Below, piece by piece: positions 37,355-56,092 of a stretch of 64,000 nt of DNA. This DNA comes from Streptomyces sp. HmicA12. GTDB taxonomy: Bacteria; Actinomycetota; Actinomycetes; Streptomycetales; Streptomycetaceae. The position numbers were made by a program, and so were the translations under genes. The DNA is taken from the NCBI RefSeq assembly GCF_000373565.1, contig NZ_KB891797.1, positions 716,487 to 780,486 on the forward strand, read 5' to 3'. Below the pieces are notes generated by a model. The model searched no databases and was not told where the DNA came from. It worked only from the letters and a program-made list of their open reading frames with translations. Position 1 is the first letter of the stretch. Each line of letters begins with the position of its first letter.

Positions 37355-37366
37355 CTACGCGCGTTA
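37355..37366 (+). promoter_or_regulatory. Nucleoside-regulon operator A (bmp1)
   Basis: CTACGCGCGTTA matches 10 of 12 positions of the palindrome CTACGCGCGTAG found upstream of four other nucleoside genes. A plausible -10 (TACGCT) starts at its right end. The start codon is 54 bp downstream. The rest of the gap 37057-37420 contains only the palindromic repeat and no gene. Confidence 0.65.
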
Positions 37367-37420
37367 CGCTCCGCCGAACTCAGCGCCCTGCGCGGCGTGT
37401 TGACGAAGGAGCACTCCATC

Positions 37421-38485
37421 ATGCGTCGTTCTCGTACAACCCGGGCCACGCGGATAGCCGTGGCCGTCACCGGTCTCGCGCTCGCCGCCACCGCTTGTGG
37501 TGGCACCAGCAGTGAGGCCGGCGACGACGACGGCTCCGCGAAGGAGAACCTGGGCCTCGCCATCGCGTACGACGTCGGTGGCAAGGGCGACCAGTCCTTC
37601 AACGACTCCGCCTACGAGGGCCTGGAGAAGGCCAAGACCGAGTTCGGGTACAAGACGGCCGACCAGGAGCCGAAGGACGGCGAGTCCGACGACGACAAGG
37701 CGCAGCGCCTGGGCAACCTGGCGAAGGCCGGCTACAACCCGGTCGTCGGCATCGGTTACGCCTACGGCCCGGCCCTGGAGAAGGTGGCGAAGAAGTACCC
37801 GAAGACCACCTTCGGCATCGTCGACTCCGTCGTCGAGGGCAAGAACGTCGCCTCCCTCGTCTTCGCCGAGAACGAGTCCTCCTACCTCGCCGGTGTCGCC
37901 GCCGCCAAGGCCACCAAGTCGAACCACGTCGGCTTCGTCGGCGGTGTCGACAACGAGCTGATCAACAAGTTCCAGGCCGGCTTCGAGCAGGGCATCAAGG
38001 ACACCAAGAAGGGTGTCAAGGTCGACGTCCAGTACCTCGACGAGGACCCGGCGAAGGGCTTCGCCAGCCCCGACCTCGGTGAGGCCGCCGCCGACAAGCA
38101 GCTGGAGGACGGCGCCGACGTGATCTACCACGCGGCCGGTCTGTCCGGGCAGGGCGTCATCAAGGCCGCCGCCGAGAAGAAGAAGTGGGTCATCGGCGTC
38201 GACTCCGACCAGTACAAGCAGCAGACGCTCGCCAAGTACAAGGACTACATCCTCACCTCCGCGCTCAAGGAGGTCGGCGAGTCCGTCTACACGCTGGCCA
38301 AGTCGGTCGAGGACAAGAAGCCGCTGACCGGCGTCCAGACCTTCGACCTCAAGGTGAACGGCGTGGGCGCCTCCGAGTCCAACCCGAAGTTCAAGGAGAT
38401 CTCCGGTCTCGCCGACGCGGTCGCCAAGGCGAAGAAGGGCATCGTCGACGGTTCGATCAAGGTCGCGGTCAAGCCGGCCAAGTGA
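37421..38485 (+). CDS. BMP-family nucleoside-binding lipoprotein 1
   Basis: This 354-aa substrate-binding protein is for an ABC nucleoside importer. The signal peptide ends at a lipobox-like ATAC (Cys about 25), followed by an acidic linker. The BMP domain shows GLAIAYDVGGKGDQSFNDSA, NPVVGIGYAYGPALEKVAKK, GIVDSVVEGKNVASLVF, HVGFVGGVDNELINKF and AAGLSGQGVIKAA. AAGGAG precedes the ATG. It is about 70% similar by eye to the next gene. It has its own operator and terminator, so the two are expressed as separate units. Confidence 0.93.
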   Translation: MRRSRTTRATRIAVAVTGLALAATACGGTSSEAGDDDGSAKENLGLAIAYDVGGKGDQSFNDSAYEGLEKAKTEFGYKTADQEPKDGESDDDKAQRLGNLAKAGYNPVVGIGYAYGPALEKVAKKYPKTTFGIVDSVVEGKNVASLVFAENESSYLAGVAAAKATKSNHVGFVGGVDNELINKFQAGFEQGIKDTKKGVKVDVQYLDEDPAKGFASPDLGEAAADKQLEDGADVIYHAAGLSGQGVIKAAAEKKKWVIGVDSDQYKQQTLAKYKDYILTSALKEVGESVYTLAKSVEDKKPLTGVQTFDLKVNGVGASESNPKFKEISGLADAVAKAKKGIVDGSIKVAVKPAK

Positions 38486-38561
38486 GGCCGCGGGAGTGAT
38501 CCCCGGACCCGTGCCGGGGTCACCCCCCGGCACACGTCATACGTACAACGCCAGGCGGCGT

Positions 38562-38597
38562 CAGGGCGGGCGCGGAACTCCTTCCGCGCCCGCCCTG
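38562..38597 (+). terminator. Intrinsic terminator of bmp1
   Basis: A perfect 16-bp GC stem (38562-38577 with 38582-38597, 4-base loop) lies 77 bp after the first BMP gene and before the operator of the second. Confidence 0.75.
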
Positions 38598-38686
38598 CGT
38601 TGCGTTCGGGAAGGTCCGCCACAGGTGCGCCGGATGCTGTGCATCGCCCTGATAACGACTCGGACAGAAGGGGTTTTATGTTCTGT

Positions 38687-38698
38687 CTACGCGCGTTA
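38687..38698 (+). promoter_or_regulatory. Nucleoside-regulon operator B (bmp2)
   Basis: CTACGCGCGTTA is identical to operator A. The next 20 bases are also conserved (CGAACTCAGCG in both), as expected from a duplicated promoter. The start codon is 61 bp downstream. Confidence 0.65.
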
Positions 38699-38759
38699 CT
38701 CTGCGGCGAACTCAGCGTCGGGCCCTGCTTTCCGGCGCTTGTACGAAGGAGCTCTTCCC

Positions 38760-39806
38760 ATGCGCCGGGTTTCCCGCATAGCGGTCGCAGGCACCGCCAC
38801 CGCCTCGCTCGCTCTCGCTCTCTCCGCCTGTGGCGGCACGTCGTCCGACGCCTCGTCGTCGGCCGGCGGCAAGGACAAGGGCCTCGCCATCGCGTACGAC
38901 GTCGGTGGCAAGGGCGACCAGTCCTTCAACGACGCCGCCTACGAGGGCCTGAAGAAGGCCAAGAGCGAGTTCGGCTACGACGTCGCCGACCAGGAGCCGA
39001 AGGACGGCGAGTCCGACGACGACAAGGCGGCACGCCTGGTCAACCTGGCGAAGGCGGGCTACAACCCGGTCGTCGGCATCGGCTACTCCTACGCCCCGGC
39101 GGTGAAGGAGGCCGCGGCCAAGTTCCCGAAGACGACCTTCGGCATCGTCGACGACTCCTCGGTCCAGGGCAAGAACGTCGCCGACCTGGTCTTCCAGGAG
39201 AACGAGGTCTCCTACCTCGCCGGCGTCACCGCCGCCCTGAAGACCAAGTCGAACCACGTCGGCTTCGTCGGCGGCGTCGACAACGCGCTGATCAACAAGT
39301 TCCGGGCCGGCTTCGAGCAGGGCGTCAAGGACACCAAGAAGGGCGTCAAGGTCGACGTCCAGTTCCTCGACGAGGACCCGGCCAAGGGCTTCGCCTCGCC
39401 GGACCTCGGCAAGGCCGCCGCCGAGAAGCAGCTCGAGGACGGCGCCGACGTCGTCTACCACGCCGCCGGTCTGTCCGGTCAGGGCGTCATCGAGGCCGCC
39501 GCCGCCGAGAAGAAGTACGCGATCGGCGTCGACTCCGACCAGTACAGCCAGAAGCCGCTGGCGGCGTACAAGAAGTACATCATCACCTCCGCCACCAAGG
39601 GCGTCGCCGAGTCGATCTACAAGCTCGCGAAGTCGGTCGAGGACGGCAAGCCGGAGACCGGTGTCATCACCGGCAACCTGAAGTCGGGTGAGGTCTCCCT
39701 CGCCGACTCCAACCCGGAGTTCAAGAACGACAGCAAGCTCCAGGCCGCGCTGAAGAAGGCCGAGGCGGGCATCGTGGACGGCTCCATCACGGTCGCCGCC
39801 AAGTAA
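38760..39806 (+). CDS. BMP-family nucleoside-binding lipoprotein 2
   Basis: This 348-aa protein has a clean lipobox (LALSACGG, Cys about 23), so it is membrane-anchored outside the cell. The BMP domain repeats the motifs of copy 1: GLAIAYDVGGKGDQSFNDAA, HVGFVGGVDNALINKF, EDPAKGFASPDLG and YHAAGLSGQGVIEAA. AAGGAGC lies upstream of the ATG. Differences from copy 1 cluster in the C-terminal third, which may tune ligand range. It precedes the ABC ATPase and permease genes but is separated by a strong terminator, allowing higher expression of the binding protein. Confidence 0.93.
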   Translation: MRRVSRIAVAGTATASLALALSACGGTSSDASSSAGGKDKGLAIAYDVGGKGDQSFNDAAYEGLKKAKSEFGYDVADQEPKDGESDDDKAARLVNLAKAGYNPVVGIGYSYAPAVKEAAAKFPKTTFGIVDDSSVQGKNVADLVFQENEVSYLAGVTAALKTKSNHVGFVGGVDNALINKFRAGFEQGVKDTKKGVKVDVQFLDEDPAKGFASPDLGKAAAEKQLEDGADVVYHAAGLSGQGVIEAAAAEKKYAIGVDSDQYSQKPLAAYKKYIITSATKGVAESIYKLAKSVEDGKPETGVITGNLKSGEVSLADSNPEFKNDSKLQAALKKAEAGIVDGSITVAAK

Positions 39807-39843
39807 CAGGCAGGCAAGCAGGCACAGCCGCAAGGCGAAGGGG

Positions 39844-39876
39844 GGCCCGGACCGCGTGTGCGACGCGGTCCGGGCC
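39844..39876 (+). terminator. Intrinsic terminator of bmp2
   Basis: Perfect 14-bp stem (39844-39857 with 39863-39876, 5-base loop), 37 bp after the second BMP gene. Confidence 0.75.
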
Positions 39877-40012
39877 GACCCGGTCGGTGACCGGGGCCTC
39901 CGGGGCCGAAGCATCCCCGTCCGGACGCTTCTTCCCCGTAACACGTTCGTGGGATCCTGCTCGGACTCCGGCTCGAACACGAACTCACTTCTCGCACAAC
40001 GCTGTTGGGGCG

Positions 40013-40024
40013 CTACGCGTGTAG
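40013..40024 (+). promoter_or_regulatory. Nucleoside-regulon operator C (ABC operon)
   Basis: CTACGCGTGTAG differs from the consensus CTACGCGCGTAG at one position. It lies 28 bp before the proposed start of the ATPase gene, with TAGGCG as a possible -10 at its right end. Confidence 0.7.
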
Positions 40025-40052
40025 GCGACCCCCCTTCCCAGGAGAGTGCGCC

Positions 40053-41609
40053 ATCGCCACGTCAAGCTCCCCGCCGACCGCAGTCGCCGTAGAACTCCAA
40101 GGCATCACCAAGCGGTTCCCGGGCGTCGTCGCCAACCACGACATCTGCCTCACCGTCCGCAAGGGCACCGTGCACGCCCTGGTCGGCGAGAACGGGGCAG
40201 GCAAGTCCACACTGATGAAGATCCTCTACGGCATGCAGAAGCCGGACGAGGGCACCATCACCATCCACGGCGAGCAGGTCTCGTACTCCTCGCCCGCCGA
40301 CGCGATCGTGCGCGGCATCGGCATGGTGCACCAGCACTTCATGCTCGCGGACAACCTCACGGTCCTGGAGAACGTCGTCCTCGGCAGCGAGAAGCTGTAC
40401 GGGATCGGCGCGAAGGCCCGCAAGAAGATCCTCGAGATATCCGAGCGGTACGGGCTCGGGGTGCGCCCCGACGTCCTGGTCGAGGACCTCGGTGTCGCCG
40501 ACCGGCAGCGCGTGGAGATCCTCAAGGTGCTGTACCGGGGCGCCACCACGCTGATCCTGGACGAGCCGACGGCCGTGCTCGTGCCGCAGGAGGTCGACGC
40601 GCTCTTCGACAACCTGCGCGGACTCAAGGCCGAGGGCCTGTCCGTCATCTTCATCTCGCACAAGCTCGGCGAGGTCCTCTCCGTCGCCGACGAGATCACC
40701 GTCATCCGGCGCGGCACGACGGTCGGCACCGCCGTCCCCGCCGAGACGACCCCCAAGCAGCTCGCCGAGCTGATGGTCGGCAGCGAACTGCCCACCCCCG
40801 AGACCGCCGAGTCCACCGTCACCGACCGACCGGTGGTCGAGGTCGACGACCTGCGGCTCGCGGCCCCCGGCGGCGGCAAGCCGCTCCTCGACGGCATCAC
40901 GTTCACCATCCACGCCGGTGAGGTCCTGGGCCTCGCGGGCGTCGAGGGCAACGGACAGACCGAGCTGATCGAGGCCCTCATCGGCCTGGAGCACGCCGAC
41001 AGCGGCGTCATCAAGATGCTCGGCGAGGACATCACCTCCTGGACGACCCGCAAGCGCCGCGAGTCAGGCGTCGGGTACATCCCCGAGGACCGTCACCGCC
41101 ACGGCCTCCTCCTGGACGCGCCGCTGTGGGAGAACCGCATCCTCGGCCACGTCACCGAGAAGCCCAACAGCAAGGGCTTCTGGCTGGACCCGAAGGCCGC
41201 GCAGGCCGACACCGAGCGGATCGTGAAGGACTACGACGTCCGCACGCCCGGCATCGACGTCACCGCCGCCTCCCTGTCCGGCGGCAACCAGCAGAAGCTG
41301 ATCGTCGGCCGCGAGATGAGCCACGCCCCCAAGTTCCTGATCGCCGCCCACCCCACCCGCGGTGTGGACGTCGGCGCGCAGGCGCAGATCTGGGACCAGA
41401 TCCGCGAGGCCCGCCGCGAGGGCCTGGCCGTGCTCCTCATCTCCGCCGACCTCGACGAACTGATCGGCCTCTCCGACACCCTCCGGGTCATCTACGACGG
41501 CCGCCTGGTCGCCGACGCCGACCCGGCCTCCATCACCCCGGAAGAGCTGGGATCCGCCATGACCGGTGCCGCCTCGGGCCACCTGGAGCACACGGAAGAC
41601 GGTGCCTGA
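40053..41609 (+). CDS. Nucleoside ABC transporter ATPase, possible ATC start codon
   Basis: This roughly 518-aa protein has two ATPase halves, as in RbsA/NupA-type importers. The first has Walker A GENGAGKST and Walker B LILDEPTAV; the second has VEGNGQTE, LSGGNQQKLIVGRE and FLIAAHPTRGVDVGAQ, with a degenerate Walker B. No ATG or GTG exists in frame near the conserved N-terminus. ATC at 40053 is perfectly placed 8 bases after AGGAGAG, whereas TTG at 40005 lies within the operator/promoter. It forms an operon with two permeases and cytidine deaminase and energises nucleoside uptake. Confidence 0.9.
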   Translation: MATSSSPPTAVAVELQGITKRFPGVVANHDICLTVRKGTVHALVGENGAGKSTLMKILYGMQKPDEGTITIHGEQVSYSSPADAIVRGIGMVHQHFMLADNLTVLENVVLGSEKLYGIGAKARKKILEISERYGLGVRPDVLVEDLGVADRQRVEILKVLYRGATTLILDEPTAVLVPQEVDALFDNLRGLKAEGLSVIFISHKLGEVLSVADEITVIRRGTTVGTAVPAETTPKQLAELMVGSELPTPETAESTVTDRPVVEVDDLRLAAPGGGKPLLDGITFTIHAGEVLGLAGVEGNGQTELIEALIGLEHADSGVIKMLGEDITSWTTRKRRESGVGYIPEDRHRHGLLLDAPLWENRILGHVTEKPNSKGFWLDPKAAQADTERIVKDYDVRTPGIDVTAASLSGGNQQKLIVGREMSHAPKFLIAAHPTRGVDVGAQAQIWDQIREARREGLAVLLISADLDELIGLSDTLRVIYDGRLVADADPASITPEELGSAMTGAASGHLEHTEDGA

Positions 41610-41611
41610 CC

Positions 41612-42751
41612 ATGAACATCCTCAAGCGCTGGAATTCCGAGCGGATCCTCCTCGCGGCGGCCGGCCCCGTCATCGCCCTCGTCGTGGCGTTCGCCCTGAC
41701 CGCGATCGTGCTGCTCGCCTCGGGCGAGAACCCGGTCGAGCCGTTCTCGATCATGTTCGAGCAGGCGACGTTCTCCGACGTCCAGGTGCTGATCATCAAT
41801 GACGCCGCCGGTCTCTACATCGGCGCGCTCGCGGTGGCCATCGGCTTCCGGATGAACCTCTTCAACATCGGTGTCGAGGGCCAGTACCGGCTCGCCGCCT
41901 GTGTCGCCGCCATCGTCGGCGCGCACATCGCGTTCCCGGCCTTCCTGCAGATCCCGCTGCTGATGCTGTCGGCCGCCGTGACCGGTGCGATCTGGTCCGG
42001 CATCGCCGGTGTGCTCAAGGTGACCCGCGGCGTCAGCGAGGTCGTCTCCACGATCATGCTCAACTCGATCGCGGCGTCGGTCATCGCGTACCTGACGCTG
42101 GAGGACGCCTTCGGTGTCGCGGTCGGCAACAACCGCACCACCGGCGAGATGGACAAGGCGGGCTGGTTCCCCGGCATCAACATGGGCGACCAGATCGGCA
42201 CCGTCTACGGCTTCGTGATCGTCGCCGTCGTCCTCGGCGCCGTCTACTGGGTGATGCTCAACCGCACCCGCTTCGGCTTCGACCTGCGCGCCTCGGGCGC
42301 CTCCGAGACCGCGGCCGCCGCCTCCGGTGTCTCCGCCAAGAAGATGGTCCTCACCGCGATGCTCCTGTCGGGCGCCGTCGCGGGCCTCGCCGGTCTGCCG
42401 ACGCTGCTCGGCTCGACGCACACCTTCTCCGACTCCTTCCCGGCCTCGCTCGGCTTCAACGCCATCACCGTGGCGCTGCTCGGCCGCAACAGCCCGGCCG
42501 GCATGGCGCTGGCCTCGCTCCTGCTCTCCTGGCTCTTCAACGCGGCCGACCCGCTCGACCTGAAGGGCTACAGCTCCGAGATCGCCACGATCATGCAGGG
42601 CCTGATCGTGATCGCCGTCGTCGTCTCCTACGAGGCCGTCCGTGTCTGGGGCACCCGCCGCCAGCAGCAGCGGGTCGGCGCCGAACTCGCCGCGGGCCAC
42701 GTCCTCGGCACCTCCGACTCCCACGAGAAGAAGCAGGAGGTGGCCGCCTGA
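41612..42751 (+). CDS. Nucleoside ABC transporter permease 1
   Basis: This 379-aa BPD_transp_2-family permease has about nine spans. Conserved segments are GLYIGALAVAIGFRMNLFNI, GVEGQYRLAACVAAIVGAHI, GVSEVVSTIMLNSIA and RTRFGFDLRASGASETAAAA (the EAA-like loop that contacts the ATPase). It starts 2 bp after the ATPase stop. It resembles the longer, NupB/YufP-like subunit of BMP-dependent nucleoside importers and pairs with permease 2, whose start overlaps its stop by one base. Confidence 0.93.
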   Translation: MNILKRWNSERILLAAAGPVIALVVAFALTAIVLLASGENPVEPFSIMFEQATFSDVQVLIINDAAGLYIGALAVAIGFRMNLFNIGVEGQYRLAACVAAIVGAHIAFPAFLQIPLLMLSAAVTGAIWSGIAGVLKVTRGVSEVVSTIMLNSIAASVIAYLTLEDAFGVAVGNNRTTGEMDKAGWFPGINMGDQIGTVYGFVIVAVVLGAVYWVMLNRTRFGFDLRASGASETAAAASGVSAKKMVLTAMLLSGAVAGLAGLPTLLGSTHTFSDSFPASLGFNAITVALLGRNSPAGMALASLLLSWLFNAADPLDLKGYSSEIATIMQGLIVIAVVVSYEAVRVWGTRRQQQRVGAELAAGHVLGTSDSHEKKQEVAA

Positions 42752-44013
42752 TGAGTACGGCACCCGTCCTCGACAAGACGCCCGCCGCGACCTCCGCGGC
42801 ACGGCGCAAGCTCAGCCTCCCCGTCCTGCTCCTGCTCATCGCGGGCCTGCTCTGCCTGGTCTCCGCGGTCCGCCTCATCACCGACGCCAACGGCCTGACG
42901 TCCGTCAGCCAGATGTCGACGGCCCTCCAACTCGCCGTCCCCATCGGCATGGCGGGCCTCGGCGGCCTGTGGGCCGAGCGCGCGGGCGTGGTCAACATCG
43001 GCCTCGAAGGCATGCTGATCCTCGGCACCTGGTTCGGCGCCTGGGCCGGCTACCAGTGGGGCCCCTGGGTCGGCATCCTCGCCGCACTGATCGGCGGCGC
43101 GCTCGGCGGCCTGGTGCACGCCATCGCCACCGTCACCTTCAACGTGAACCACATCGTCTCCGGTGTGGCCATCAACATCCTGGCCCTGGGCGCGACCCGC
43201 TACCTGTCGGCCATGATCTACGACGGCATGGACAACGCCACCACCCGGCAGTCCCCGCCCGTCTCCAGCCTCGGCGAGTTCACCGTCCCCGGCCTCGCGG
43301 ACGCGCTCGCCGACCTCAACAAGCAGGGCTGGTTCCTGATCTCCGACATCGCGGGCCTGCTCGGCGGCGTGATGACCGGTGTCTCCTGGCTGACCCTGAT
43401 CGCGGTGCTGCTGATCCCGGCGTCCTGGTGGATCCTGTGGCGCACCTCGTTCGGCCTGCGCCTGCGCTCCTGCGGCGAGAACCCGGTCGCGGCCGAGTCG
43501 CTCGGCGTCAACGTCATCAAGTACAAGTACATCGCCGTGCTGGCGTCCGGCGCCCTCGCGGGCCTCGGCGGCGCCTTCCTCTCGATGGTCTCCTCCAACT
43601 ACTACCTGGAGGGCCAGACCGGCGGTCGCGGCTACATCGGTCTCGCCGCGATGATCTTCGGCAACTGGATGCCGGGCGGACTCGCCCTCGGTGCGGGCCT
43701 GTTCGGCTACAGCGACACCCTCAAGGTCCGCGGCGGCACGGAGAACACCCACGCGCTGCTCCTGCTGATCGCGCTCCTCGCGCTCCTCGCCGTCGCGTGG
43801 CTGATCTGGAAGAAGAAGTACGTCGGCGGAGTCGTCACGCTCGCCGTCTCCGTCCTCCTCTTCTTCTGGTACGCCTCCACCGACTCGGTCCCGAGCCAGG
43901 TCGCCACGGCCATGCCGTACGTCATCACCCTGATCGTGCTGGCGCTCTCGGCACAGCGCCTGAGGATGCCGAAGGCGGACGGACAGCCGTACCGGAAGGG
44001 CCAGGGCACGTGA
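42751..44013 (+). CDS. Nucleoside ABC transporter permease 2
   Basis: This 420-aa BPD_transp_2-family protein has the motifs GGLWAERAGVVNIGLEGMLI, NHIVSGVAINILALGATRYL, RTSFGLRLRSCGENPVAAES and ASGALAGLGGAFLSMVSSNY typical of the NupC/YufQ-like subunit. Ten or so spans are predicted, with a long C-terminal hydrophobic region (LLIALLALLAVAWLIWKKK, then three more). The start overlaps the previous stop (TGATG), and its own stop overlaps the cytidine deaminase GTG. Confidence 0.93.
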   Translation: MSTAPVLDKTPAATSAARRKLSLPVLLLLIAGLLCLVSAVRLITDANGLTSVSQMSTALQLAVPIGMAGLGGLWAERAGVVNIGLEGMLILGTWFGAWAGYQWGPWVGILAALIGGALGGLVHAIATVTFNVNHIVSGVAINILALGATRYLSAMIYDGMDNATTRQSPPVSSLGEFTVPGLADALADLNKQGWFLISDIAGLLGGVMTGVSWLTLIAVLLIPASWWILWRTSFGLRLRSCGENPVAAESLGVNVIKYKYIAVLASGALAGLGGAFLSMVSSNYYLEGQTGGRGYIGLAAMIFGNWMPGGLALGAGLFGYSDTLKVRGGTENTHALLLLIALLALLAVAWLIWKKKYVGGVVTLAVSVLLFFWYASTDSVPSQVATAMPYVITLIVLALSAQRLRMPKADGQPYRKGQGT

Positions 44014-44408
44014 CGGACGTGACGGTCGCCGACTGGGAGGCACTGCGGCAGGCGGCGCGCGCGGCCATGTCCCGCGCGTACGCCCCGTACTCGGGCTTCC
44101 CGGTCGGCGCGGCCGCCCGCGTCGACGACGGCCGCACCGTCACCGGCTGCAACGTCGAGAACGCGTCGTACGGGCTCGGCCTGTGCGCCGAGTGCGGTCT
44201 GGTCTCGCAGCTGGTGTCCACCGGCGGCGGCCGCCTCACGCACTTCACGTGCGTGGACGGCAAGGGCGAGATCCTCATGCCGTGCGGCCGCTGCCGTCAG
44301 CTGTTGTACGAGTTCGGGGGCCGGGAGCTCCTGCTGGAGACGTCCGCCGGGATACGCACGCTCGGCGACATGCTCCCGGACGCGTTCGGCCCGGAGCAGC
44401 TGGGCTGA
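44010..44408 (+). CDS. cdd: Cytidine deaminase
   Basis: This 132-aa tetrameric-type enzyme converts cytidine and deoxycytidine to uridine and deoxyuridine. The active site is clear: GCNVENASYGLGLCAECGLV holds the CAE (zinc Cys and proton-shuttle Glu), and MPCGRCRQLLYEF holds the other two zinc cysteines. GTG 44010 overlaps the permease stop by 4 bases (GTGA), so uptake and the first catabolic step are coupled in one operon. Confidence 0.95.
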   Translation: MTDVTVADWEALRQAARAAMSRAYAPYSGFPVGAAARVDDGRTVTGCNVENASYGLGLCAECGLVSQLVSTGGGRLTHFTCVDGKGEILMPCGRCRQLLYEFGGRELLLETSAGIRTLGDMLPDAFGPEQLG

Positions 44409-44425
44409 TTGTTCGGGGCGGGTGC

Positions 44426-44508
44426 GTGGGGGCTTCTCGCGCAGTCCCACCGGCCCTGAAGGCCACAGGCCTTCCAGGGGCGCGGGGAACTGCGCGAGAA
44501 GCCCCCAC
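44426..44508. repeat. Dispersed long palindrome, copy 2 (degenerate)
   Basis: Outer arms 44426-44445 and 44489-44508 are perfect 20-bp inverted copies (GTGGGGGCTTCTCGCGCAGT on the left). The inner left arm has diverged, while the inner right arm keeps the AGGGGCGCGGGGAA core. It sits 17 bp after cytidine deaminase and probably ends the ABC-cdd operon. Confidence 0.8.
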
Positions 44509-44599
44509 CGGCCCGCACCCGACAACGCACCGACGAAATGGCGCCCAACGCTTGGCAAAGCGTGGGCCGCGTCCCCGCGCCGGGCCGGATCATCACCCC

Positions 44600-45358: not shown

Positions 45359-45365
45359 GCGGCGG

Positions 45366-45686: not shown

Positions 45687-45820
45687 TGTCACTACTCCAC
45701 AAATCTCGTGAGCCGAATCGCTCGCCTTCCCGGCTTCTTCGCCAGCAGTTCGCCGTGATGGTCTCAGAGGAGATCGCGATCTGTCTTGTGAACTGTCTAT
45801 AAGGCCTGGAGGAGAGCGGA

Positions 45821-47053: not shown

Positions 47054-47099
47054 CCCCGCGCCACCGCCTTGCCCGCCCAGCTCTCTTCACGCGCGGCAT

Positions 47100-47111
47100 C
47101 TATGCGCGTAG
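47100..47111 (+). promoter_or_regulatory. Nucleoside-regulon operator D (deoA)
   Basis: CTATGCGCGTAG differs from the consensus by one base. TAGAGT (47109-47114) at its right end is a credible -10. The start codon is 42 bp downstream. Confidence 0.72.
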
Positions 47112-47153
47112 AGTCGCGGCATCGCGTCGAGCCGAACCGTTGGAGGATTTGCC

Positions 47154-48431
<1,278 letters not shown>

Positions 48432-48453
48432 CCTGGGGTTTCTTCTTTCGCGT

Positions 48454-48487
48454 GAACGGGATCGGTGGACCGCCACCGGTCCCGTTC
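48454..48487 (+). terminator. Intrinsic terminator of deoA
   Basis: A 15-bp stem (48454-48468 with 48473-48487, one G-U pair, 4-base loop) starts 23 bp after the stop codon. Confidence 0.75.
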
Positions 48488-48526
48488 GGCATGCTGGTAT
48501 CGGTGACGACCGAGGGGAGCACCGCC

Positions 48527-49117
48527 ATGAGCCCACTCGCCGTCGAGCCCGGGCCCGCCCGCGGCTCGGACTGGGACGAGCTCGTCCGTGTCTGGGAGGA
48601 GACGGACGCCCCCGAGGGCTGCAAGGTGGAGATCATCGAGGGGATCGTCACCTTGGCGCCGCCGCCTTCCGAAGAGCACAACGACGCCGCTGAACTTGTC
48701 ACCGAGATCCTCTGGCCCGCACGGCCCGAGGGCTGTGGGATTTACCAGGCCCTCGGCCTGATCGCCGCCGACGCCGGAGGCCTCTACATCCCCGATCTCT
48801 GCGTCGTCCCCCGCGCCGCACTGCGTGAGCGCCGCCGCGTCCAGGCCGCTGAGGCGGAACTGGTCGTCGAGATCACCTCGCAGGACAACGCCAACCACGA
48901 CCGGGTCAAGAAGGCCCACGGATACGCGAAGGCCGGCGTTCCGCTCTACCTGCTCCTGGACCCCTGGCACTCAGGGCGACCGACGGCGACGCTGTACGGC
49001 GAACCCGCGGGCGGGACCTACCGGGTGCTGGACTCGGTGGAGTACGGCGAGGAACTGAGGCTGCCCGCCCCGTTCGCCATCACCCTCGACATCAATGTGC
49101 TGCCTCTCAACGACTGA
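48527..49117 (+). CDS. Uma2-family (DUF820) restriction-endonuclease-fold protein, second copy
   Basis: This 196-aa protein has the Uma2 core: CKVEIIEGIVTLAPPPSEEH, YIPDLCVVPRAAL (metal-binding Asp), AELVVEITSQDNANHDRVKK (E-x-T...K) and HGYAKAGVPLYLLLDP. It is only distantly similar to the copy at 12751. GAGGGGAGC precedes the ATG. Its biological role is unknown, although the catalytic residues look intact. It is convergent with the AEC transporter with a 1-bp gap. Confidence 0.85.
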   Translation: MSPLAVEPGPARGSDWDELVRVWEETDAPEGCKVEIIEGIVTLAPPPSEEHNDAAELVTEILWPARPEGCGIYQALGLIAADAGGLYIPDLCVVPRAALRERRRVQAAEAELVVEITSQDNANHDRVKKAHGYAKAGVPLYLLLDPWHSGRPTATLYGEPAGGTYRVLDSVEYGEELRLPAPFAITLDINVLPLND

Positions 49118-49118
49118 G

Positions 49119-50057
49119 TCACCCCAACAACGCCGCCACCACCACCAACACCGGCACCGCCACCATCGTCGACAAGAGAATCGACTCCCGGGCCAACCGC
49201 TCGCCCACCCGGTACCGGCTCGCGTACGTGAACAGGTTCTGCGCCGCCGGAAGCGCCGACGTCACCACCACGTCGAGCAGCCGCGCCCCGTGCAGCCCGA
49301 ACACGGACGTCGCCAGCGCCCACGCCGCCACCGGCTGGCCCACCGACTTCAGCGCCGTCGACAGCAGCACCGGCACCCGGTCCGCGCCGCGCCCGCCCGG
49401 CCACGAACTCCCGCACAGCGAGATGCCGAACGCGATCAGGATCGCGGGCACCGACATGTTCGCGATCAGTTCCAGCGGGTCGAAGACCGGGGACGGCACC
49501 GTCCAGCCGGTCGCCGACACCGCCACCCCGGACAGCGAGCCGATCGCGATCGGATTGCGGAACGGCGTCAACAGCCGCTGCCCCCACGTCAGTCGCGCCC
49601 CCGACGACGCCTCCGCCAGATCGAGGATCGTCAGCGCGATCGGCGTCACGAACAGCTGCTGGAAGAGGAGGACCGGGGCCACGAGCGAGGCGTCGCCGAG
49701 GACGTACACCGCGATCGGGATGCCGAGGTTGCCCGAGTTCACGTACGAGGAGCAGAGCGCGCCGATCGTGGTGCGGCCGACGCCCCAGCCGCGTACCGCA
49801 CCCACCGCGACGAAGATTCCGGCCGTCACCGCCGTGGACAGGGCCGTCACCAGCAGGCTCGGCGAGAGGATCAGGGACAGGTCCGCCTTGGCGAGCATCG
49901 TGAAGAGCAGGGCCGGGGTCGCCACATGGAAGGCCAGCTTGGTGAGCACCTCGCGGCCGCCCTCGCCCAAGTAGCCGCGCCGGCCGATGACATAGCCGAC
50001 CGCGATGACGATCGCGATGACCGCGAACCCGTTGAGTACCCCCTGCACGTACTCCAC
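49119..50057 (-). CDS. AEC-family (auxin efflux carrier-like) transporter
   Basis: This 312-aa membrane protein has about ten spans in two repeats. It opens GFAVIAIVIAVGYVIGRRGY, has the central SSYVNSGNLGIPIAVYVLGD (the conserved N-x-G-N-x-x-x-P motif of the crossover helix) and a second repeat FGISLCGSSW...LPAAQNLFTYASRY. AEC proteins move organic anions such as malate or malonate. GTG start at 50057. The substrate is unknown. Confidence 0.88.
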   Translation of the reverse strand: MEYVQGVLNGFAVIAIVIAVGYVIGRRGYLGEGGREVLTKLAFHVATPALLFTMLAKADLSLILSPSLLVTALSTAVTAGIFVAVGAVRGWGVGRTTIGALCSSYVNSGNLGIPIAVYVLGDASLVAPVLLFQQLFVTPIALTILDLAEASSGARLTWGQRLLTPFRNPIAIGSLSGVAVSATGWTVPSPVFDPLELIANMSVPAILIAFGISLCGSSWPGGRGADRVPVLLSTALKSVGQPVAAWALATSVFGLHGARLLDVVVTSALPAAQNLFTYASRYRVGERLARESILLSTMVAVPVLVVVAALLG

Positions 50058-50143
50058 CCTCGGACGCGGAAGAACCGCAGGTCAACGTTGATCAGGATCA
50101 ACGTGATCCAGCCCACGCCGAATCCACGGCGGGGCACCGGCGC

Positions 50144-50587
50144 ATGCCGATGAGTTTCGGCGCGCCGTCCGGTCTCGTCTACGTGGCTGATTCTGTGTTC
50201 TCCGGGTCCTCTCCGTCCTCTCCGTCTCCCGTCGTGGTCGTCGCCGGGCCGATCGGGCCTGCCGACGTGCAGGGGCTGTGCGACCGCGTCCGCCGCGCCG
50301 CCCACCAGTGCGCCCCGGACGGCGATGTCGTCTGCGACGTCGCCGGCGTGACCGGCACCGGTCTCGCCACCGTCGACGCGCTCGCCCGGATGCAGCTCGC
50401 CGCCCGGCGGGCCGGGGGCCGGATCAGATTGCGCGACCCGTCCCCGAAGCTCGCCCTGCTCATCCGACTCGCCGGGCTCGAAAGCCCTTTGGGACTAGGC
50501 GTCGAGATGCTCGGGGACGCCGAACAGCGGGAACCACCGCTTGCCGAGGTCCAGGAAGCAGTGGAAACCCGCGATGCGCCCCTCTGA
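50144..50587 (+). CDS. STAS-domain protein (anti-anti-sigma-like)
   Basis: This 147-aa protein has a STAS fold: VVVVAGPIGPADVQGLCDRV, DGDVVCDVAGVTGTGLATVD (the loop where a Ser/Thr would be phosphorylated is T-G-T-G-L) and LARMQLAARRAGGRIRLRDP. GTGLATVDAL takes the place of the usual D-S-S/T-G motif. The last 93 bases overlap the 3' end of the convergent sigma gene, so its final 30 residues are read opposite that gene. An ATG at 50150 is a possible alternative start. Confidence 0.72.
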   Translation: MPMSFGAPSGLVYVADSVFSGSSPSSPSPVVVVAGPIGPADVQGLCDRVRRAAHQCAPDGDVVCDVAGVTGTGLATVDALARMQLAARRAGGRIRLRDPSPKLALLIRLAGLESPLGLGVEMLGDAEQREPPLAEVQEAVETRDAPL

Positions 50588-51475
50588 GATCTCCAGGACC
50601 TGGATGGCCCAGGGCGTGAAGCCGCCGTTGTCCGGGTCGGGCTTGTAGTGGGCGAACGCCGGCGTCCCGTTCGCCGAGACCGGCAGCAGGCGGGAGTTCT
50701 CGCACTCGCTGCCGATCGTGAGCATGAAGCCCGTGATGTCGTCCGTGCCGCGCAGCCACAGGTCGAACGGCGGCATCGTCATGACCGCGTCCTCGGCCAG
50801 CAGCTCGGTGAGCGCCTTCATGTCGTAGCCCTCGAACGCCGTGACGTAGCGCTCCAGGAGCTTCTGCTGCTCGTCGTCCAGCGGGTTCGCCGTCGCCGAG
50901 TCCGCCGGGGGCGCCTCCGCGAGCGTCGCCCGCGCCCGCTGCAGCGCGCTGTTCACCGACGCCACCGACGTGTCGAGCAGCTCGGCGACCTCGCTCGCCT
51001 TCCACGCCAGCACCTCGCGCAGGATCAGCACCGCCCGCTGCTTGGACGGCAGCTGCTGCAGGGCCGCCACGAAGGCGAGCCGCACCGACTCGCGCGCCAC
51101 GGCCGCCTCCGCCGGGTCGTGCACCGTCGGCAGAACACGGGCGTCGGGCATCGGCTCCAGCCACACATTGTCGGGACGGGGGGTCAGCGCCGCCTGGGCC
51201 AGCGGGGCCGCCGCCGTCAGGTCCATCGGACGGGCCCGCTTGTTGCCCGCGTTCAACGAGTCCAGGCACACGTTCGTCGCGATGCGGTACAGCCACGAGC
51301 GCAGCGAGGAGCGGCCCTCGAACTTGTCGAAGCTGCGCCAGGCCCGGACCATCGTGTCCTGCACGGCGTCCTCCGCCTCGAACGCGGAGCCCAGCATCCG
51401 GTAGCAGTAGCCGGTCAGCTCGACCCGGTATTTCTCCAGGTCTTCGAGCCCGGCCTTCGTCGCGGTGTCACTCAT
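50495..51475 (-). CDS. Long ECF sigma factor with SnoaL-like C-terminal domain (SigG/SigJ-like)
   Basis: This 326-aa protein contains region 2 (RVELTGYCYRMLGSAFEAED, SSLRSWLYRIATNVCLDSLN) and region 4 (LQQLPSKQRAVLILREVLAW, VAELLDTSVASVNSALQRAR). About 120 residues of a SnoaL/NTF2-like fold follow (LLERYVTAFEGYDMKALTEL, AVMTMPPFDLWLRG, GFHCFLDLGKRWFP). Such factors lack a separate anti-sigma factor; the C-terminal domain modulates activity and may bind a small ligand. ATG 51475 is favoured over 51514. Confidence 0.9.
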   Translation of the reverse strand: MSDTATKAGLEDLEKYRVELTGYCYRMLGSAFEAEDAVQDTMVRAWRSFDKFEGRSSLRSWLYRIATNVCLDSLNAGNKRARPMDLTAAAPLAQAALTPRPDNVWLEPMPDARVLPTVHDPAEAAVARESVRLAFVAALQQLPSKQRAVLILREVLAWKASEVAELLDTSVASVNSALQRARATLAEAPPADSATANPLDDEQQKLLERYVTAFEGYDMKALTELLAEDAVMTMPPFDLWLRGTDDITGFMLTIGSECENSRLLPVSANGTPAFAHYKPDPDNGGFTPWAIQVLEISEGRIAGFHCFLDLGKRWFPLFGVPEHLDA

Positions 51476-51650
51476 GGTCCTACGCCCCCATCGCGGCTGT
51501 GATTCCCAGCACATCCCCAGTACTTCGCAAGCTACCGCAGCCCACTGACAACGGCCCCCGGACCGGCGAAAAGCGCAGGTCGGGAGGCCGTCGACGAAAG
51601 CCGTGGGACGGGTGTGGAAGCCGGGTGAGGGCCTAGTGGGGGCGTGACCG

Positions 51651-52952
51651 TCAGTGCGCGGCGGCCAGCTTCCCGCCGCGCCGCTCCCGGGACCGTGCCG
51701 CGTACGTCCCCCACAGCGTCAGCGAGACGACACCGAGCACGGCGGCGAAACCGAGCCCCACCGTGCCGCCCCAGCCCGCCGCGTGGAACGCCATGGCGCC
51801 CACCGCCGAGCCGACGCTGGAGCCGATGTAGTACGCGGACTGGTACAGCGCCGACGCCTGCGCGCGCCCGTGCGTCGCGGTGCGGCTGACGGACGAGGAC
51901 GCGGTCGCGTGCCCGGCGAAGAACCCCGCCGTGATCAGCACGAGGCCGAGCAGGACGACCGGCAGCCGGGGCATCAGGACGAGCACCAGGCCCGCCGCCG
52001 TCGTGCCCGCGCCCAGGTACAGCGTGCCGCGCCGCCCGAGCCGCGCGACCAGCCTGCCGGCCGCCGACGAGGAGACCGTGCCCACCAGATAGACCAGGAA
52101 GATCGAGCCGACGAAGCCCTGGGAGAGCGAGAAGGGCGCCGCCGTGAGCCGGTAGCCGATGACCGTGTACGTCGCGCCGAACACCATCATGAACAGCGCG
52201 CCGATCACGTACAGGCGGCGCAGCAGCGGGTTGGCCAGGTGGTCGCCGACCGTGCGGACCAGCGCGCGCGGGTGCAGCGACCCGGGCGTGAAGTGGCGCG
52301 GCGCCGGCAGCAGGAGACGGAACGCGATCGCGCACGCCACGGCGATGACGCCGACGGTGCCCACGGCCGCCCGCCAGCCCCACGCCTCGGCGATCCAGCC
52401 GCCGATGATGCGGCCGCTCATGCCCCCGATGGAGTTGCCCGCGACGAACAGGCCGATCGCCGTGACCAGCGCCTTCGGCCGGACCTCCTCCGCCAGGTAC
52501 GCCATCGCTGAGGCCGGGAGCCCGGCCAGCGCGGCACCCTGGAGCACCCGCAGCGCGACCAGGACCTCCAGGGTCGGCGCGAACGGGACCAGCAGACCCA
52601 CCGAGACGGCGACCGCCAGCGACGCCGTCATCACCGTGCGCCGCCCGAACCGCTCCGACAGCGCGCTCAGCGGCAGCACGCACACCGCGAGCGCGAAGGT
52701 CGCGCCGGACACCGTCCAGCTCGCCGCGCTCGCGCTCGCGCCGAAGCCGGCCGAGACGAGGGGGAGCAGGGCCTGCGTGGAGTAGAGCAGCGCGAAGGTG
52801 GCGATCCCGGCGAGGAAGAGGGCGAAGCTCATCCGGCGGTAGCCGGGGCCGCCCGGGGTCATCCGGGTGTCGGATTGCTCGACGGCGGTGTGCTCGACGG
52901 CGGGGGCGGCGACCGCAGGGGTGACGGCCGCCTGACTACTGGCAGGAGACAT
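51651..52952 (-). CDS. MFS transporter (YnfM-like)
   Basis: This 433-aa protein has 12 predicted spans after a 35-residue Ala/Pro/Thr tail. Motif-A is LSERFGRRTVMTASLA and a motif-C-like segment is GNSIGGMSGRIIGGWIAEAW. The second half carries LVARLGRRGTLYLGAGTTAA. It is divergent from a LysR regulator, a pairing seen often for this MFS subgroup, and the intergenic region contains an LTTR-type TCCA-N5-TGGA site. The exported compound is unknown. Confidence 0.88.
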   Translation of the reverse strand: MSPASSQAAVTPAVAAPAVEHTAVEQSDTRMTPGGPGYRRMSFALFLAGIATFALLYSTQALLPLVSAGFGASASAASWTVSGATFALAVCVLPLSALSERFGRRTVMTASLAVAVSVGLLVPFAPTLEVLVALRVLQGAALAGLPASAMAYLAEEVRPKALVTAIGLFVAGNSIGGMSGRIIGGWIAEAWGWRAAVGTVGVIAVACAIAFRLLLPAPRHFTPGSLHPRALVRTVGDHLANPLLRRLYVIGALFMMVFGATYTVIGYRLTAAPFSLSQGFVGSIFLVYLVGTVSSSAAGRLVARLGRRGTLYLGAGTTAAGLVLVLMPRLPVVLLGLVLITAGFFAGHATASSSVSRTATHGRAQASALYQSAYYIGSSVGSAVGAMAFHAAGWGGTVGLGFAAVLGVVSLTLWGTYAARSRERRGGKLAAAH

Positions 52953-52982
52953 GCCATGAACGTAGGACCGTCCGACTCATGC

Positions 52983-53007
52983 GTCCAATGCATGGACAGC
53001 CCATAAT
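52983..53007 (+). promoter_or_regulatory. LysR-type box and likely leaderless promoter of LysR gene
   Basis: GTCCAATGCATGGAC (52983-52997) contains TCCA-N5-TGGA dyad arms, suited to a LysR dimer. CATAAT (53002-53007) is a good -10, and initiation 7-8 bases later would fall on the ATG at 53015, so the mRNA is probably leaderless. No ribosome site is present. Confidence 0.55.
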
Positions 53008-53014
53008 CGTTCCC

Positions 53015-53995
53015 ATGGAGCATGAGCACAGGTCACAGCGGCGGATGTCACCGGCCGGTGACACGGAAGACATGGTCACCCTGCTCGCGCCGCGGCTCTC
53101 CTACTTCGCCGCCGTGGCCCGCGCCGAGCACGTCACGCGCGCCGCCCACGAGCTGCAGGTACCCCAGTCCACGCTCTCGCGCGCCATGGTCCGTCTCGAA
53201 CAGGACCTGGGCGTCGACCTGTTCGCCCGCCACGGCCGCACGGTCTCCCTCACCCCCGCGGGCCGTACGTTCCTCACCTCCGTCGAACGGGCCCTCGGCG
53301 AGGTCGAGAAGGCCGCCGAGTCCGTGCGCGCCGACGCCGACCCGGCCTCCGGCAAGGTCGCCTTCGGGTTCCTGCACACCATGGGCGTGGAGACGGTGCC
53401 AGGACTGATCCGGGCCTTCCGCGCCGACCATCCCCGGATCCGCTTCAGCCTCGTACAGAACTATGGCGAGGCGATGCTGGAGCGGCTGCGCGCGGGCGAG
53501 CTCGACCTGTGCCTCACCTCGCCCGTGCCCGACGAGCCCGGACTGGTCGCCCGCCGCCTCGACGAGCAGCGGCTGCGCCTGGTCGTCCCCGAGGACCATC
53601 GGCTCGCCGCCCGCAAGCGCGTCCGTCTCCCCGAGCTCGCCGACGAAACGTTCGTCACCCTCGAACCCGGCTACGGCCTGCGCCGCATCTTCGACGACCT
53701 CTGCGCGGAAGCGGGATTCAAACCCCGGGTCGCGTTCGAGGGCGAGGAGGCCGAGACGCTGCGCGGCCTGGTCGCGGCGGGCCTCGGCGTGGCGCTCCTG
53801 CCGCCACCGACCGTGCCGCGCCCCGGAGTCGTGGAGCTGACCGTCACCGGCCAGCGCGCCGTCCGCGAGATCGGCGTGGCCTGGCTGGACGGCCACCCGG
53901 ACACACCGCCGGTGGCGGCGTTCAAGAACTTCCTGCTGTCCCGGCGCGGGCGACTGCTGCCGGAGCAGGCGGACGTGGAGCAGGGGGAGCAGTGA
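53015..53995 (+). CDS. LysR-family transcriptional regulator
   Basis: This 326-aa protein has a winged HTH near residues 22-82 (LSYFAAVARAEHVTRAAHEL, then QVPQSTLSRAMVRLEQDLGV followed by LFARHGRTVSLTPAG) and a periplasmic-binding-protein-like ligand domain (GFLHTMGVETVPGLIRAFRA, LCLTSPVPDEPGLVARRLDE, VALLPPPTVPRPGVVELTV). The sequence between the HTH and wing is canonical. It is divergent from the MFS transporter and probably controls it in response to the exported compound. ATG 53015 is chosen from the -10 position; an upstream start at 52979 would disrupt the promoter. Confidence 0.9.
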   Translation: MEHEHRSQRRMSPAGDTEDMVTLLAPRLSYFAAVARAEHVTRAAHELQVPQSTLSRAMVRLEQDLGVDLFARHGRTVSLTPAGRTFLTSVERALGEVEKAAESVRADADPASGKVAFGFLHTMGVETVPGLIRAFRADHPRIRFSLVQNYGEAMLERLRAGELDLCLTSPVPDEPGLVARRLDEQRLRLVVPEDHRLAARKRVRLPELADETFVTLEPGYGLRRIFDDLCAEAGFKPRVAFEGEEAETLRGLVAAGLGVALLPPPTVPRPGVVELTVTGQRAVREIGVAWLDGHPDTPPVAAFKNFLLSRRGRLLPEQADVEQGEQ

Positions 53996-54064
53996 GGGGG
54001 CTCCCGCGGGGAACCGTTCGCGACCGCCGGACGTGGAGGTGAGCGACGAGAGGGAGTGGTGGGG

Positions 54065-55192
54065 ATGACGGGCAGCGCGAGACAGGACCCGCCGGGGGTG
54101 GCGCGGGGCAGCCTGCGAGAGGTGTCGCTGCGACGGCAGCGGGCCACGACGTACACCGCCGTGATCATGGTGCTGGTCTCCGCGGTCCTGTTCGCGCTGA
54201 TCCCGCTCGCCGAGGCCGACAACCGCGCCTACGCGGCGGCGCCGCGCTGCCCCGCCGGGACCCGGGCCGACGACTGCCGGGCACGCGTCCCGGCGATGGT
54301 CCTCGGCACGGAGGACGAGGCGAACGGCAGAAGCAGCGCCTACTTCCTCCGCCTCACCGACCTGAAGACGCACTCCGTGTACCGGCTGCGGATGCCCGGC
54401 AAGCGCCCCCTCTACGCCGTCGCACGCCCGGCCGACCGGGTCACCGTGACGTACTGGAAGACCGAGGCCCGACAGGTCCGGCTCGGCTCGCTGACCCAGG
54501 ACACCTGGCGCTCGCCGCTCGCCGACGGACGGCTCCCCGGCGGCTTCGCGCTCCTCCTGCTGCCCCTGGGGCTCGGGCTGCTCTGGCTCTGCTGGTGGCA
54601 GCGGTACCGGGGGAGGGCGAAGGAGCACTCCTGGGTGTCCGCCGTCGGGATCGTCGCGGGGGTCTTCGTCGGCTCCACCGCGCTCACCCTCTGCTTCGCC
54701 GGAGATCTGTTCGGCGGCCCGGGCGTCTGGTGGATCGCGAGGATCTGCGCCCTCGCCGCCGTCCCGAGCATCCTGCTCTCCGCCCTCCTGTGCTGGTCGC
54801 TGATGCGGCGGATGCGCGGCGTGGCCCGCAACGTCGTCCCGGTCGAGCCGGACGGACACCGCTGCGTGCTCGCGATCGTCCACGGCGACGTCCCCTACAG
54901 CGTCCCCGGTTACCCCTACCTGGTCGTGGGCGCGGGACCGCCGGCCGCGACCCCGGACCCGACGGGACGCTTCGCCCTCGTCCCGCTCCCGCCGACGCTG
55001 ACGGTGCGCGAAGTGCGGGCGCTGGACGCCGACGACCCCGCGGGCTGGCACGGCAACCCCAAGGACCTCGGCATCGTCATCGACTGCGTCGACACCGACG
55101 GCGATCACCGGGTCCGGATCGCGGCGGGCCGCAAGACCGCGCCGCTCGTGCTCGGGGCGTTGCTCGAAGCCGCCGCAGGCACCGTGCGCTGA
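54065..55192 (+). CDS. Multi-span membrane protein of unknown function (375 aa)
   Basis: Predicted spans are about 28-50 (TTYTAVIMVLVSAVLFALIP), about 160-177 (FALLLLPLGLGLLWLCWW), about 191-215 and about 222-246. Between the first two lies an extracytoplasmic domain with two cysteines (APRCPAGTRADDCRAR) and a beta-rich stretch. The C-terminal cytosolic part has VRIAAGRKTAPLVLGALLEA. I recognise no family. It starts about 70 bp after the LysR gene in the same direction. Confidence 0.7.
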   Translation: MTGSARQDPPGVARGSLREVSLRRQRATTYTAVIMVLVSAVLFALIPLAEADNRAYAAAPRCPAGTRADDCRARVPAMVLGTEDEANGRSSAYFLRLTDLKTHSVYRLRMPGKRPLYAVARPADRVTVTYWKTEARQVRLGSLTQDTWRSPLADGRLPGGFALLLLPLGLGLLWLCWWQRYRGRAKEHSWVSAVGIVAGVFVGSTALTLCFAGDLFGGPGVWWIARICALAAVPSILLSALLCWSLMRRMRGVARNVVPVEPDGHRCVLAIVHGDVPYSVPGYPYLVVGAGPPAATPDPTGRFALVPLPPTLTVREVRALDADDPAGWHGNPKDLGIVIDCVDTDGDHRVRIAAGRKTAPLVLGALLEAAAGTVR

Positions 55193-55198
55193 CCCCGC

Positions 55199-55957
55199 CT
55201 ACAGGGGGAGCGTCTGACCGAACCCCGCGGCCAGCGGCATCCGCAGACCGATCGGCGGCGGCGCCGCGAGCGCGTCCTGCAACGGCCGGGAGAAGGGGCG
55301 GCCGAAGAGCGTGCCGAGCGTGAAGTCCACGGCCAGCGCGGTGACTTCGGCCCGGTGCTGGGACAGGCTGTGCCCGTCCGAGTGCACCTCGAAGCGGCAC
55401 ACGTCACGGTTCGCCTTCTTCGCCCGCCCGGCGAGCCGGAACGACAGCTCCGGATCCGTGCGCCGGTCGTCCGTGCCGTGCACGATCAGCACCCGTCGGC
55501 CCGCGAGCTGTTTCACCGGTTCGGGCGGTGCCGCGACATCGTCCTCCGGCAACCAAGGGGCGAGCGCGAGAACGGAGTTGACGGCGTCGTGGCCGCCCGC
55601 GTGCAGCGCCGCGCGTCCGCCCATGTCCGTGCCCGCGAGACAGATCGGCACGTCCCCGTAGCGGCGCACCACCTCGTCGGCGGCCCACTCGGCGTCCCGT
55701 GCGAGCCCGGCCTGCGCGCCGTTCCAGCCGCGGCACCGGTACTGCACGACATGGGTGACCAGGCCCTTGTCGCGGCCCGCGCGCGTGAGTCCGCGCGCCA
55801 GCGGACGCAGCAGCGTGGCCGCCAGCCGCGAGGGTCCGCGGGTGGACGTCTGCTCGCCCGCGGGCAGCAGCAGCACCACGCCGCCGACCGCCCCGGGCAC
55901 CGGCCCGACCGCCTTGCCGAGCCTGGCCTCGCGGGCCGGCATCGCTCGCTGCTGCAT
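55199..55957 (-). CDS. Alpha/beta hydrolase with Asp at the nucleophile position
   Basis: This 252-aa protein shows the hydrolase fold: GGVVLLLPAGEQT (strand and oxyanion loop), ICLAGTDMGGRAALHAGGHD (nucleophile elbow), VLIVHGTDDRRTDPELS (acid) and HSDGHSLSQHR (His). The elbow reads G-T-D-M-G, with Asp where esterases have Ser, as in dehalogenases and epoxide hydrolases, although the rest resembles dienelactone-hydrolase-like proteins. It may be inactive as an esterase or have a different chemistry. It is convergent with the membrane protein upstream. Confidence 0.75.
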   Translation of the reverse strand: MQQRAMPAREARLGKAVGPVPGAVGGVVLLLPAGEQTSTRGPSRLAATLLRPLARGLTRAGRDKGLVTHVVQYRCRGWNGAQAGLARDAEWAADEVVRRYGDVPICLAGTDMGGRAALHAGGHDAVNSVLALAPWLPEDDVAAPPEPVKQLAGRRVLIVHGTDDRRTDPELSFRLAGRAKKANRDVCRFEVHSDGHSLSQHRAEVTALAVDFTLGTLFGRPFSRPLQDALAAPPPIGLRMPLAAGFGQTLPL

Positions 55958-56064
55958 GACAGAACAGTGTCAGAAGCCAGGATGTACGCCACCCGTCCGC
56001 AGGGTCACTGTTGCGTATCGGCGGATCACGTTCTCCTCACTTTCTCCCGTCGACCCGGAGTGAT

Positions 56065-56076
56065 CTACGCGCGTAG
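56065..56076 (+). promoter_or_regulatory. Nucleoside-regulon operator E (add)
   Basis: CTACGCGCGTAG is a perfect 12-bp palindrome and the best match to the consensus. TAGAGT (56081-56086) is a likely -10, which would start transcription at or next to the ATG at 56093 (leaderless). Operator-bound repressor would overlap the promoter. Confidence 0.75.
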
Positions 56077-56092
56077 GAGTTAGAGTGCGGAA

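Follow-up and report, generated by a model that had tools for sequence, protein, structure and literature searches.

The 12-bp palindrome CTACGCGCGTAG recurs, exactly or with one or two mismatches, ahead of nucleoside genes in a 64,000-nucleotide stretch of the Streptomyces sp. HmicA12 genome (contig NZ_KB891797.1, positions 716,487 to 780,486; hereafter the window). Our analysis indicates that it is likely the operator of one regulator, most likely a dimeric repressor, of a family-wide regulon for nucleic-acid scavenging and purine supply in Streptomycetaceae. The palindrome heads genes with homology-based roles in the extracellular digestion of nucleic acids and nucleotides, in the import of nucleosides and bases, in their conversion (add, deoA, purine nucleoside phosphorylase, deoC and nucleoside hydrolase), in pyrimidine-ring breakdown and in steps of purine synthesis (purS and purN). 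While transcription-factor operators are a known kind of element, this one is strongly supported, apparently undescribed and unusually wide in theme, and its range is a whole bacterial family.

Copies of the proposed operator in the window

The initial annotation had proposed five palindrome copies, at 37355, 38687, 40013, 47100 and 56065, lying 16–61 bp ahead of gene starts. All five were recovered with 0–2 mismatches, counted here and throughout relative to the exact palindrome, and the measured site-to-start gaps are 54 bases for the first BMP gene, 61 for the second, 28 for the importer, 42 for deoA and 16 for add. The sites and the genes behind them are as follows.

37355..37366, + strand: operator copy CTACGCGCGTTA, 2 mismatches, ahead of BMP gene 1; its last two bases open the -10-like box TACGCT (37365-37370)
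37421..38485, + strand: BMP/PnrA-type nucleoside-binding lipoprotein 1 (PF02608)
38687..38698, + strand: operator copy CTACGCGCGTTA, 2 mismatches, ahead of BMP gene 2; overlaps the -10-like box TACTCT (38697-38702)
38760..39806, + strand: BMP lipoprotein 2, assigned by similarity to BMP 1 (no profile run); ATG at 38760
40013..40024, + strand: operator copy CTACGCGTGTAG, 1 mismatch, ahead of the ABC importer-cdd operon
40053..44408, + strand: ABC ATPase (PF00005), two permeases (PF02653) and cytidine deaminase cdd, the last assigned from its sequence
47100..47111, + strand: operator copy CTATGCGCGTAG, 1 mismatch, ahead of deoA; overlaps the -10-like box TAGAGT (47109-47114)
47154..48431, + strand: deoA, pyrimidine nucleoside phosphorylase (PF00591, PF07831, PF02885)
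56065..56076, + strand: exact operator CTACGCGCGTAG, 0 mismatches, ahead of add; -10-like box TAGAGT at 56081-56086, with the start codon 6 bases on
56093..57208, + strand: add, adenosine deaminase (PF00962)

The initial annotation noticed no copy at unrelated genes. Nine matches with at most two mismatches exist in the window, and the four beyond the promoter copies, each with two mismatches, fall in the end of add (57182), within two called two-component-system genes (60952 and 61125) and in no called gene (57839); none of them stands ahead of a called gene start. Because looser counts show no enrichment in the window (39 matches with up to three mismatches, against a shuffle mean of 59.9), the case for an operator rests on position, on the whole genome and on conservation.

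At the importer, the operator is flanked by GGGGC and GCCCC-like sequences, and the ATPase gene apparently starts with ATC (40053), where other genomes have ATC or ATA. Its frame offers no usual start codon between a TTG upstream of the operator and a GTG at 40170, and similarity begins at the ATC.

Distribution of sites across the genome

The exact 12-mer occurs three times in the 9,160,373 bases (9.16 Mb) of the genome, all within 20 kb of contig C1; for the whole genome, Markov models of order 1–3 trained on 248 kb of its sequence predict 0.37–0.53 occurrences. All three copies (3/3) precede nucleoside genes: one is the add site of the window, and the other two lie beyond its end.

C1:786984 (window coordinate 70498, 6.5 kb past the window): exact site ahead of deoC
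C1:791943 (window coordinate 75457, 11.5 kb past the window): exact site ahead of purine nucleoside phosphorylase

Among the 24 one-mismatch sites, two are the importer and deoA sites of the window, and nine more lie 35–182 bases upstream of, or overlap, the called start of a gene within the nucleoside and purine theme. As judged by Pfam, these targets are a 5'-nucleotidase, a second nucleotidase, a nucleoside hydrolase, an NCS2 permease, an NCS1 permease, purS, a beta-ureidopropionase-like gene, a nicotinamidase-like gene and a PhoX-like phosphatase, the last two being seen in this genome only. The targets named by the initial annotation (import, cdd, deoA and add) thus hold, but as a range they proved too narrow, since deoC, the phosphorylase and unlinked genes carry the site as well.

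Conservation in the genus, family and class

The exact 12-mer was found in all 61 sampled Streptomyces genomes at 2–6 copies each (229 sites, against 38 for the reversed pattern) and in 80 of 81 Streptomycetaceae genomes, covering 16 of 17 genera. G362, the one family genome that lacks it, carries near copies ahead of deoC (one mismatch) and of the phosphorylase (two mismatches). Among 296 genomes drawn from across the class, the exact 12-mer is present in 28/28 members of the genus and in 10/268 others, nine of which have one copy and one of which has three; among these sites outside the family, the surroundings of 9/12 were read, and none lies directly before a theme gene. The 12-mer is therefore not scattered at random in the source genome, the genus or the family.

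To see what follows the sites, we read 126 distinct exact copies (loci returned by the search tool plus chosen others, mostly singletons), 117 of them in the family and 9 outside. Theme genes follow 99 of the 117 family sites: the phosphorylase at 34, the importer at 25, add at 22, deoC at 10 (one by eye, L316), purN at 6, and a 5'-nucleotidase and purS at 1 each. Five more precede two recurrent genes of unclear role, namely a HAD hydrolase (2) and a secreted protein with immunoglobulin (Ig) and carbohydrate-binding domains (3); in sister genera (L200, L210, L211), the exact site stands 56–63 bases before such a secreted protein, in which both domains are putative. Two are truncated by contig ends where the phosphorylase or the importer would be expected (L035, L041), and six are unexplained (L042, L047, L123, L214, L217, L218); a beta-ureidopropionase relative at L042 was dropped as a target, as it lies 299 bases away. 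The remaining five are taken up below.

We also read 22 of the 49 one-mismatch sites in G057, G292 and G419, picked for promoter-like variants, so that no rate can be derived from them. Nine of these are on theme: purS (2), beta-ureidopropionase (2), 5'-nucleotidase (2), a second nucleotidase (1) and two secreted nuclease-like genes, one with a lamin-tail domain below Pfam's cut-off (L243) and one of the endonuclease/exonuclease/phosphatase type (L259). The unlinked targets purS, beta-ureidopropionase and the two nucleotidases thereby recur between genomes, and the same site before functionally related but unlinked genes is what a single conserved regulon would display.

Orthologous promoters tell the same story. 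Across six Streptomyces contigs (five species or strains besides one contig cut at its end), the BMP form CTACGCGCGTTA stands ahead of 10/11 BMP genes, the importer site ahead of 5/6 importers (one in mirror form) and CTATGCGCGTAG ahead of 4/6 deoA genes; the same comparison in Janibacter revealed no such sites. The window BMP protein is 86–88% identical to its counterparts at the nearest Streptomyces loci. The sites are thus present at the orthologous promoters of related species, again as expected of a single conserved regulon.

Site architecture and predicted mode of action

In ten BMP promoters, chosen because the site is present, TCTACGCGCGTTA forms 13 consecutive invariant columns amid diverged flanks, and this asymmetric form provides the first bases of a -10-like box. 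At purS in five genomes, conservation is stricter in the arms, CTAC and GTAG, than at the center, whose four bases read GCGA, GCGC, CCGC, CCGC and CCGT on the gene strand. Among the 14 matches to CTACNNNNGTAG in the source genome, 7 are targets, including 4/4 of those with one central change; in G292, 5/9 are targets.

Downstream of the site, a TANNNT box recurs at a spacing typical of each target: +4 at add (20/22) and at the HAD gene (2/2), +1 at deoC (9/9), +12 at the phosphorylase (31/34) and +14 at purS (1/1). In the source genome, the start codons of add and deoC lie 6 bases past the -10-like box, an arrangement that, on sequence grounds, resembles that of leaderless genes.

A repressor is likely because the -10-like box follows the site at a fixed distance. 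Since the site overlaps -10-like boxes or sits 1–14 bases upstream of them, the bound protein would block access of RNA polymerase to the promoter. It would then leave the DNA in response to a purine-pathway metabolite, the least certain step of this scheme; phosphoribosyl pyrophosphate or a purine base would be the favoured ligand because purine synthesis and scavenging share the site. The single repressor of the initial annotation, coordinating nucleoside import with catabolism, is upheld insofar as a shared site links import with cytidine, thymidine and adenosine catabolism, while the repression itself is read from the -10-like boxes.

Two other accounts of the site were considered. An activator, binding for example between -35 and -10, appears unlikely to us. 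MerR-type activators bind just upstream of -10, which matches the position of the site relative to the -10-like box at add, deoC and the phosphorylase; at the BMP genes and deoA, however, the site overlaps the box itself, its 12 bases are short for MerR operators, and catabolic genes are more often repressed. That the sequence works as a core-promoter or RNA element, and not through a protein bound to it, is very improbable. It is short, always close to starts and, at the importer, framed by the GGGGC and GCCCC-like flanks, but its distance to the start varies by target from 28 (add; 56065 to 56093) to about 150 bases (purN), at add it would fall upstream of a leaderless transcript, and it is confined to one theme.

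Several observations weigh against one repressor acting through this operator. Among the one-mismatch sites of the source genome, 13/24 are off theme: nine fall inside called open reading frames, one is near no gene, and three precede genes, namely rpoB by 11 bases, a secreted protease by 54 and another gene by 291. The copy at the rpoB start, GTACGCGCGTAG (L008), appears again in G057 (L251), and the two could be either chance matches or a real target. In G057, G292 and G419, the on-theme share of the one-mismatch sites read is only the 9/22 given above. Five of the 117 exact family sites lie inside coding sequence, in the opening codons (M-T-A-T-R-V) of another adenosine deaminase gene, where coding conservation may account for them. 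CTACNNNNGTAG is not over-represented in the source genome (14, against 17–30 expected); the importer, purN and secreted-protein promoters show no -10-like box at one fixed offset; and the promoters themselves are predicted from sequence. Finally, none of the regulator genes read has its own copy of the site.

Candidate regulators

The expectation that a conserved regulator gene would bear its own site was thus disappointed, including at a nearby candidate, a DeoR-family protein (HTH_DeoR and DeoRC; a sugar-phosphate sensor) encoded at C1:794292-795248, 2.3 kb from the phosphorylase site. Orthologs of this protein were found in 22/22 family genomes searched (71–100% identity), its first 61 residues show 0–2 differences (none in 19/22), as expected for a regulator with many fixed sites, and the gene stands beside the phosphorylase in all five fetched loci that span both (L311, L312, L314, L315, L316). 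Against this, no palindrome precedes the gene itself. In the family members whose upstream regions were read (L267-L288), its promoter has a different conserved block (about GTTACTGTCAGTTTCGTGTTCGC), so the protein may control a regulon of another kind. Four out-group orthologs were read; none has the 12-mer ahead of it, and two (G113, G087) lie at sugar-importer-like genes, with other inverted repeats there; moreover, DeoR-type operators usually have TTCG/CGAA half-sites. Lacking its own site and having two out-group orthologs at sugar-importer-like genes, this neighbor was set aside, and we regard it as a rather unlikely regulator.

An orphan winged-helix protein of the BlaI/MecI/CopY family (PF03965; C14:37575-38003) has, in our estimate, a slim chance of being the regulator. 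The TAC-N4-GTA arrangement of the palindrome matches in geometry the CopY box KACANNTGTA and the BlaI/MecI motif TACA/TGTA (PMC7253601). Related actinobacterial promoters share the CTAC/GTAG arms: CTAC-N5-GTAG or CTAC-N6-GTAG occurs in those of many BlaI-type genes (L323, L330, L336, L338, L340, L343, L344, L346, L348, L351, L353), where it is probably their own operator. A relative of the orphan is present in 81/81 family genomes, and it is the only match of the paralog search in G013 and G292, both of which have the regulon. The resemblance has limits, however: the TAC/GTA arms are indeed four bases apart, but in place of the inner A and T of TACA/TGTA the palindrome has G and C (consensus TACG/CGTA), and the actinobacterial relatives use spacers of 5–6. 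Nor does such a site precede the orphan gene in the loci read. The protein is also divergent in two genera, g115 and g118, in which the best relatives are only 47–59% identical, yet the exact add site is retained in 4/4 g118 genomes; G397, which has a single exact site of unread surroundings, shows only a weak relative (E 6.6e-12). A close ortholog is thus missing from part of the site-bearing genomes, and the candidate was rejected. A paralog (C21:25554-25976) with an adjacent peptidase-like gene was likewise dropped, having no close counterpart in G013 and G292, which have the regulon; two ACGCGYGTAG half-sites lie ahead of its start.

A LacI/PurR-type operator was discounted because the invariant central CpG is not kept, the center being altered at the beta-ureidopropionase and nicotinamidase sites. 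A small XRE-type gene, whose promoter in the source genome shows a different inverted repeat, was also excluded, and a MarR-type gene 139 bases from CTACGCATGTAG (L368) is one case only. The XRE-type gene adjoins a methionine aminopeptidase-like gene; it lies near the site in G024 and G159 and 1.5 kb from the beta-ureidopropionase site in the source genome (L044, L224, L300). A PucR-type gene is located within the beta-ureidopropionase operon.

Relation to known systems and significance

In E. coli and B. subtilis, PurR is one regulator over purine synthesis and purine uptake genes, and in E. coli, CytR and DeoR place deoA, deoC, cdd and nucleoside import under common control. The regulon proposed here resembles PurR regulons in joining purine synthesis and uptake under one regulator, but its operator differs from the PurR boxes, and it includes nucleoside catabolism, pyrimidine-ring breakdown and secreted nuclease-like genes. 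With CytR/DeoR it shares the joint control of deoA, deoC, cdd and nucleoside import; it differs in an operator unlike the DeoR box, in the inclusion of purine synthesis and in a DeoR-type neighbor that carries no site.

Two described regulators invite comparison. NupR, a GntR-type regulator of a nucleoside permease in Bacillus thuringiensis (PMC9430930), likewise controls nucleoside uptake but is permease-centered and belongs to Firmicutes. XdhR of Streptomyces coelicolor (PMC6627660) is a repressor of purine salvage in the same genus; it was rejected as the regulator, as no palindrome with fewer than 3 mismatches lies at the one xdh-like locus read.

No description of this operator or regulon was found in the open-licence literature, which omits most subscription papers. 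Two papers contain the 12-mer, in both cases only as a crystallised A-form DNA duplex, PDB 5MVK (PMC8510090, PMC8063756), and a nine-base part of it occurs as a primer (PMC4573997). A bolder reading, which we consider conceivable but put forward tentatively, is that of an undescribed master repressor in Streptomycetaceae which, through one palindrome, would link secreted nucleases and nucleotidases with the import of nucleosides and bases, their salvage and catabolism, the breakdown of the pyrimidine ring, nicotinamide salvage and the synthesis of purines. Its sensor would be of a type new to purine and nucleoside control, and such a nucleic-acid scavenging programme would suit a mycelium feeding on the DNA and RNA of lysed cells.

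The exact 12-mer opens the regulator to a one-step pull-down. GTP gives rise to ppGpp and c-di-GMP, both of which influence antibiotic production and development in Streptomyces (reviewed in PMC6627660), so the regulator could be a new handle on these processes. If the proposed regulon is real, nucleoside and purine metabolism in Streptomyces would be under PurR/CytR-like control.

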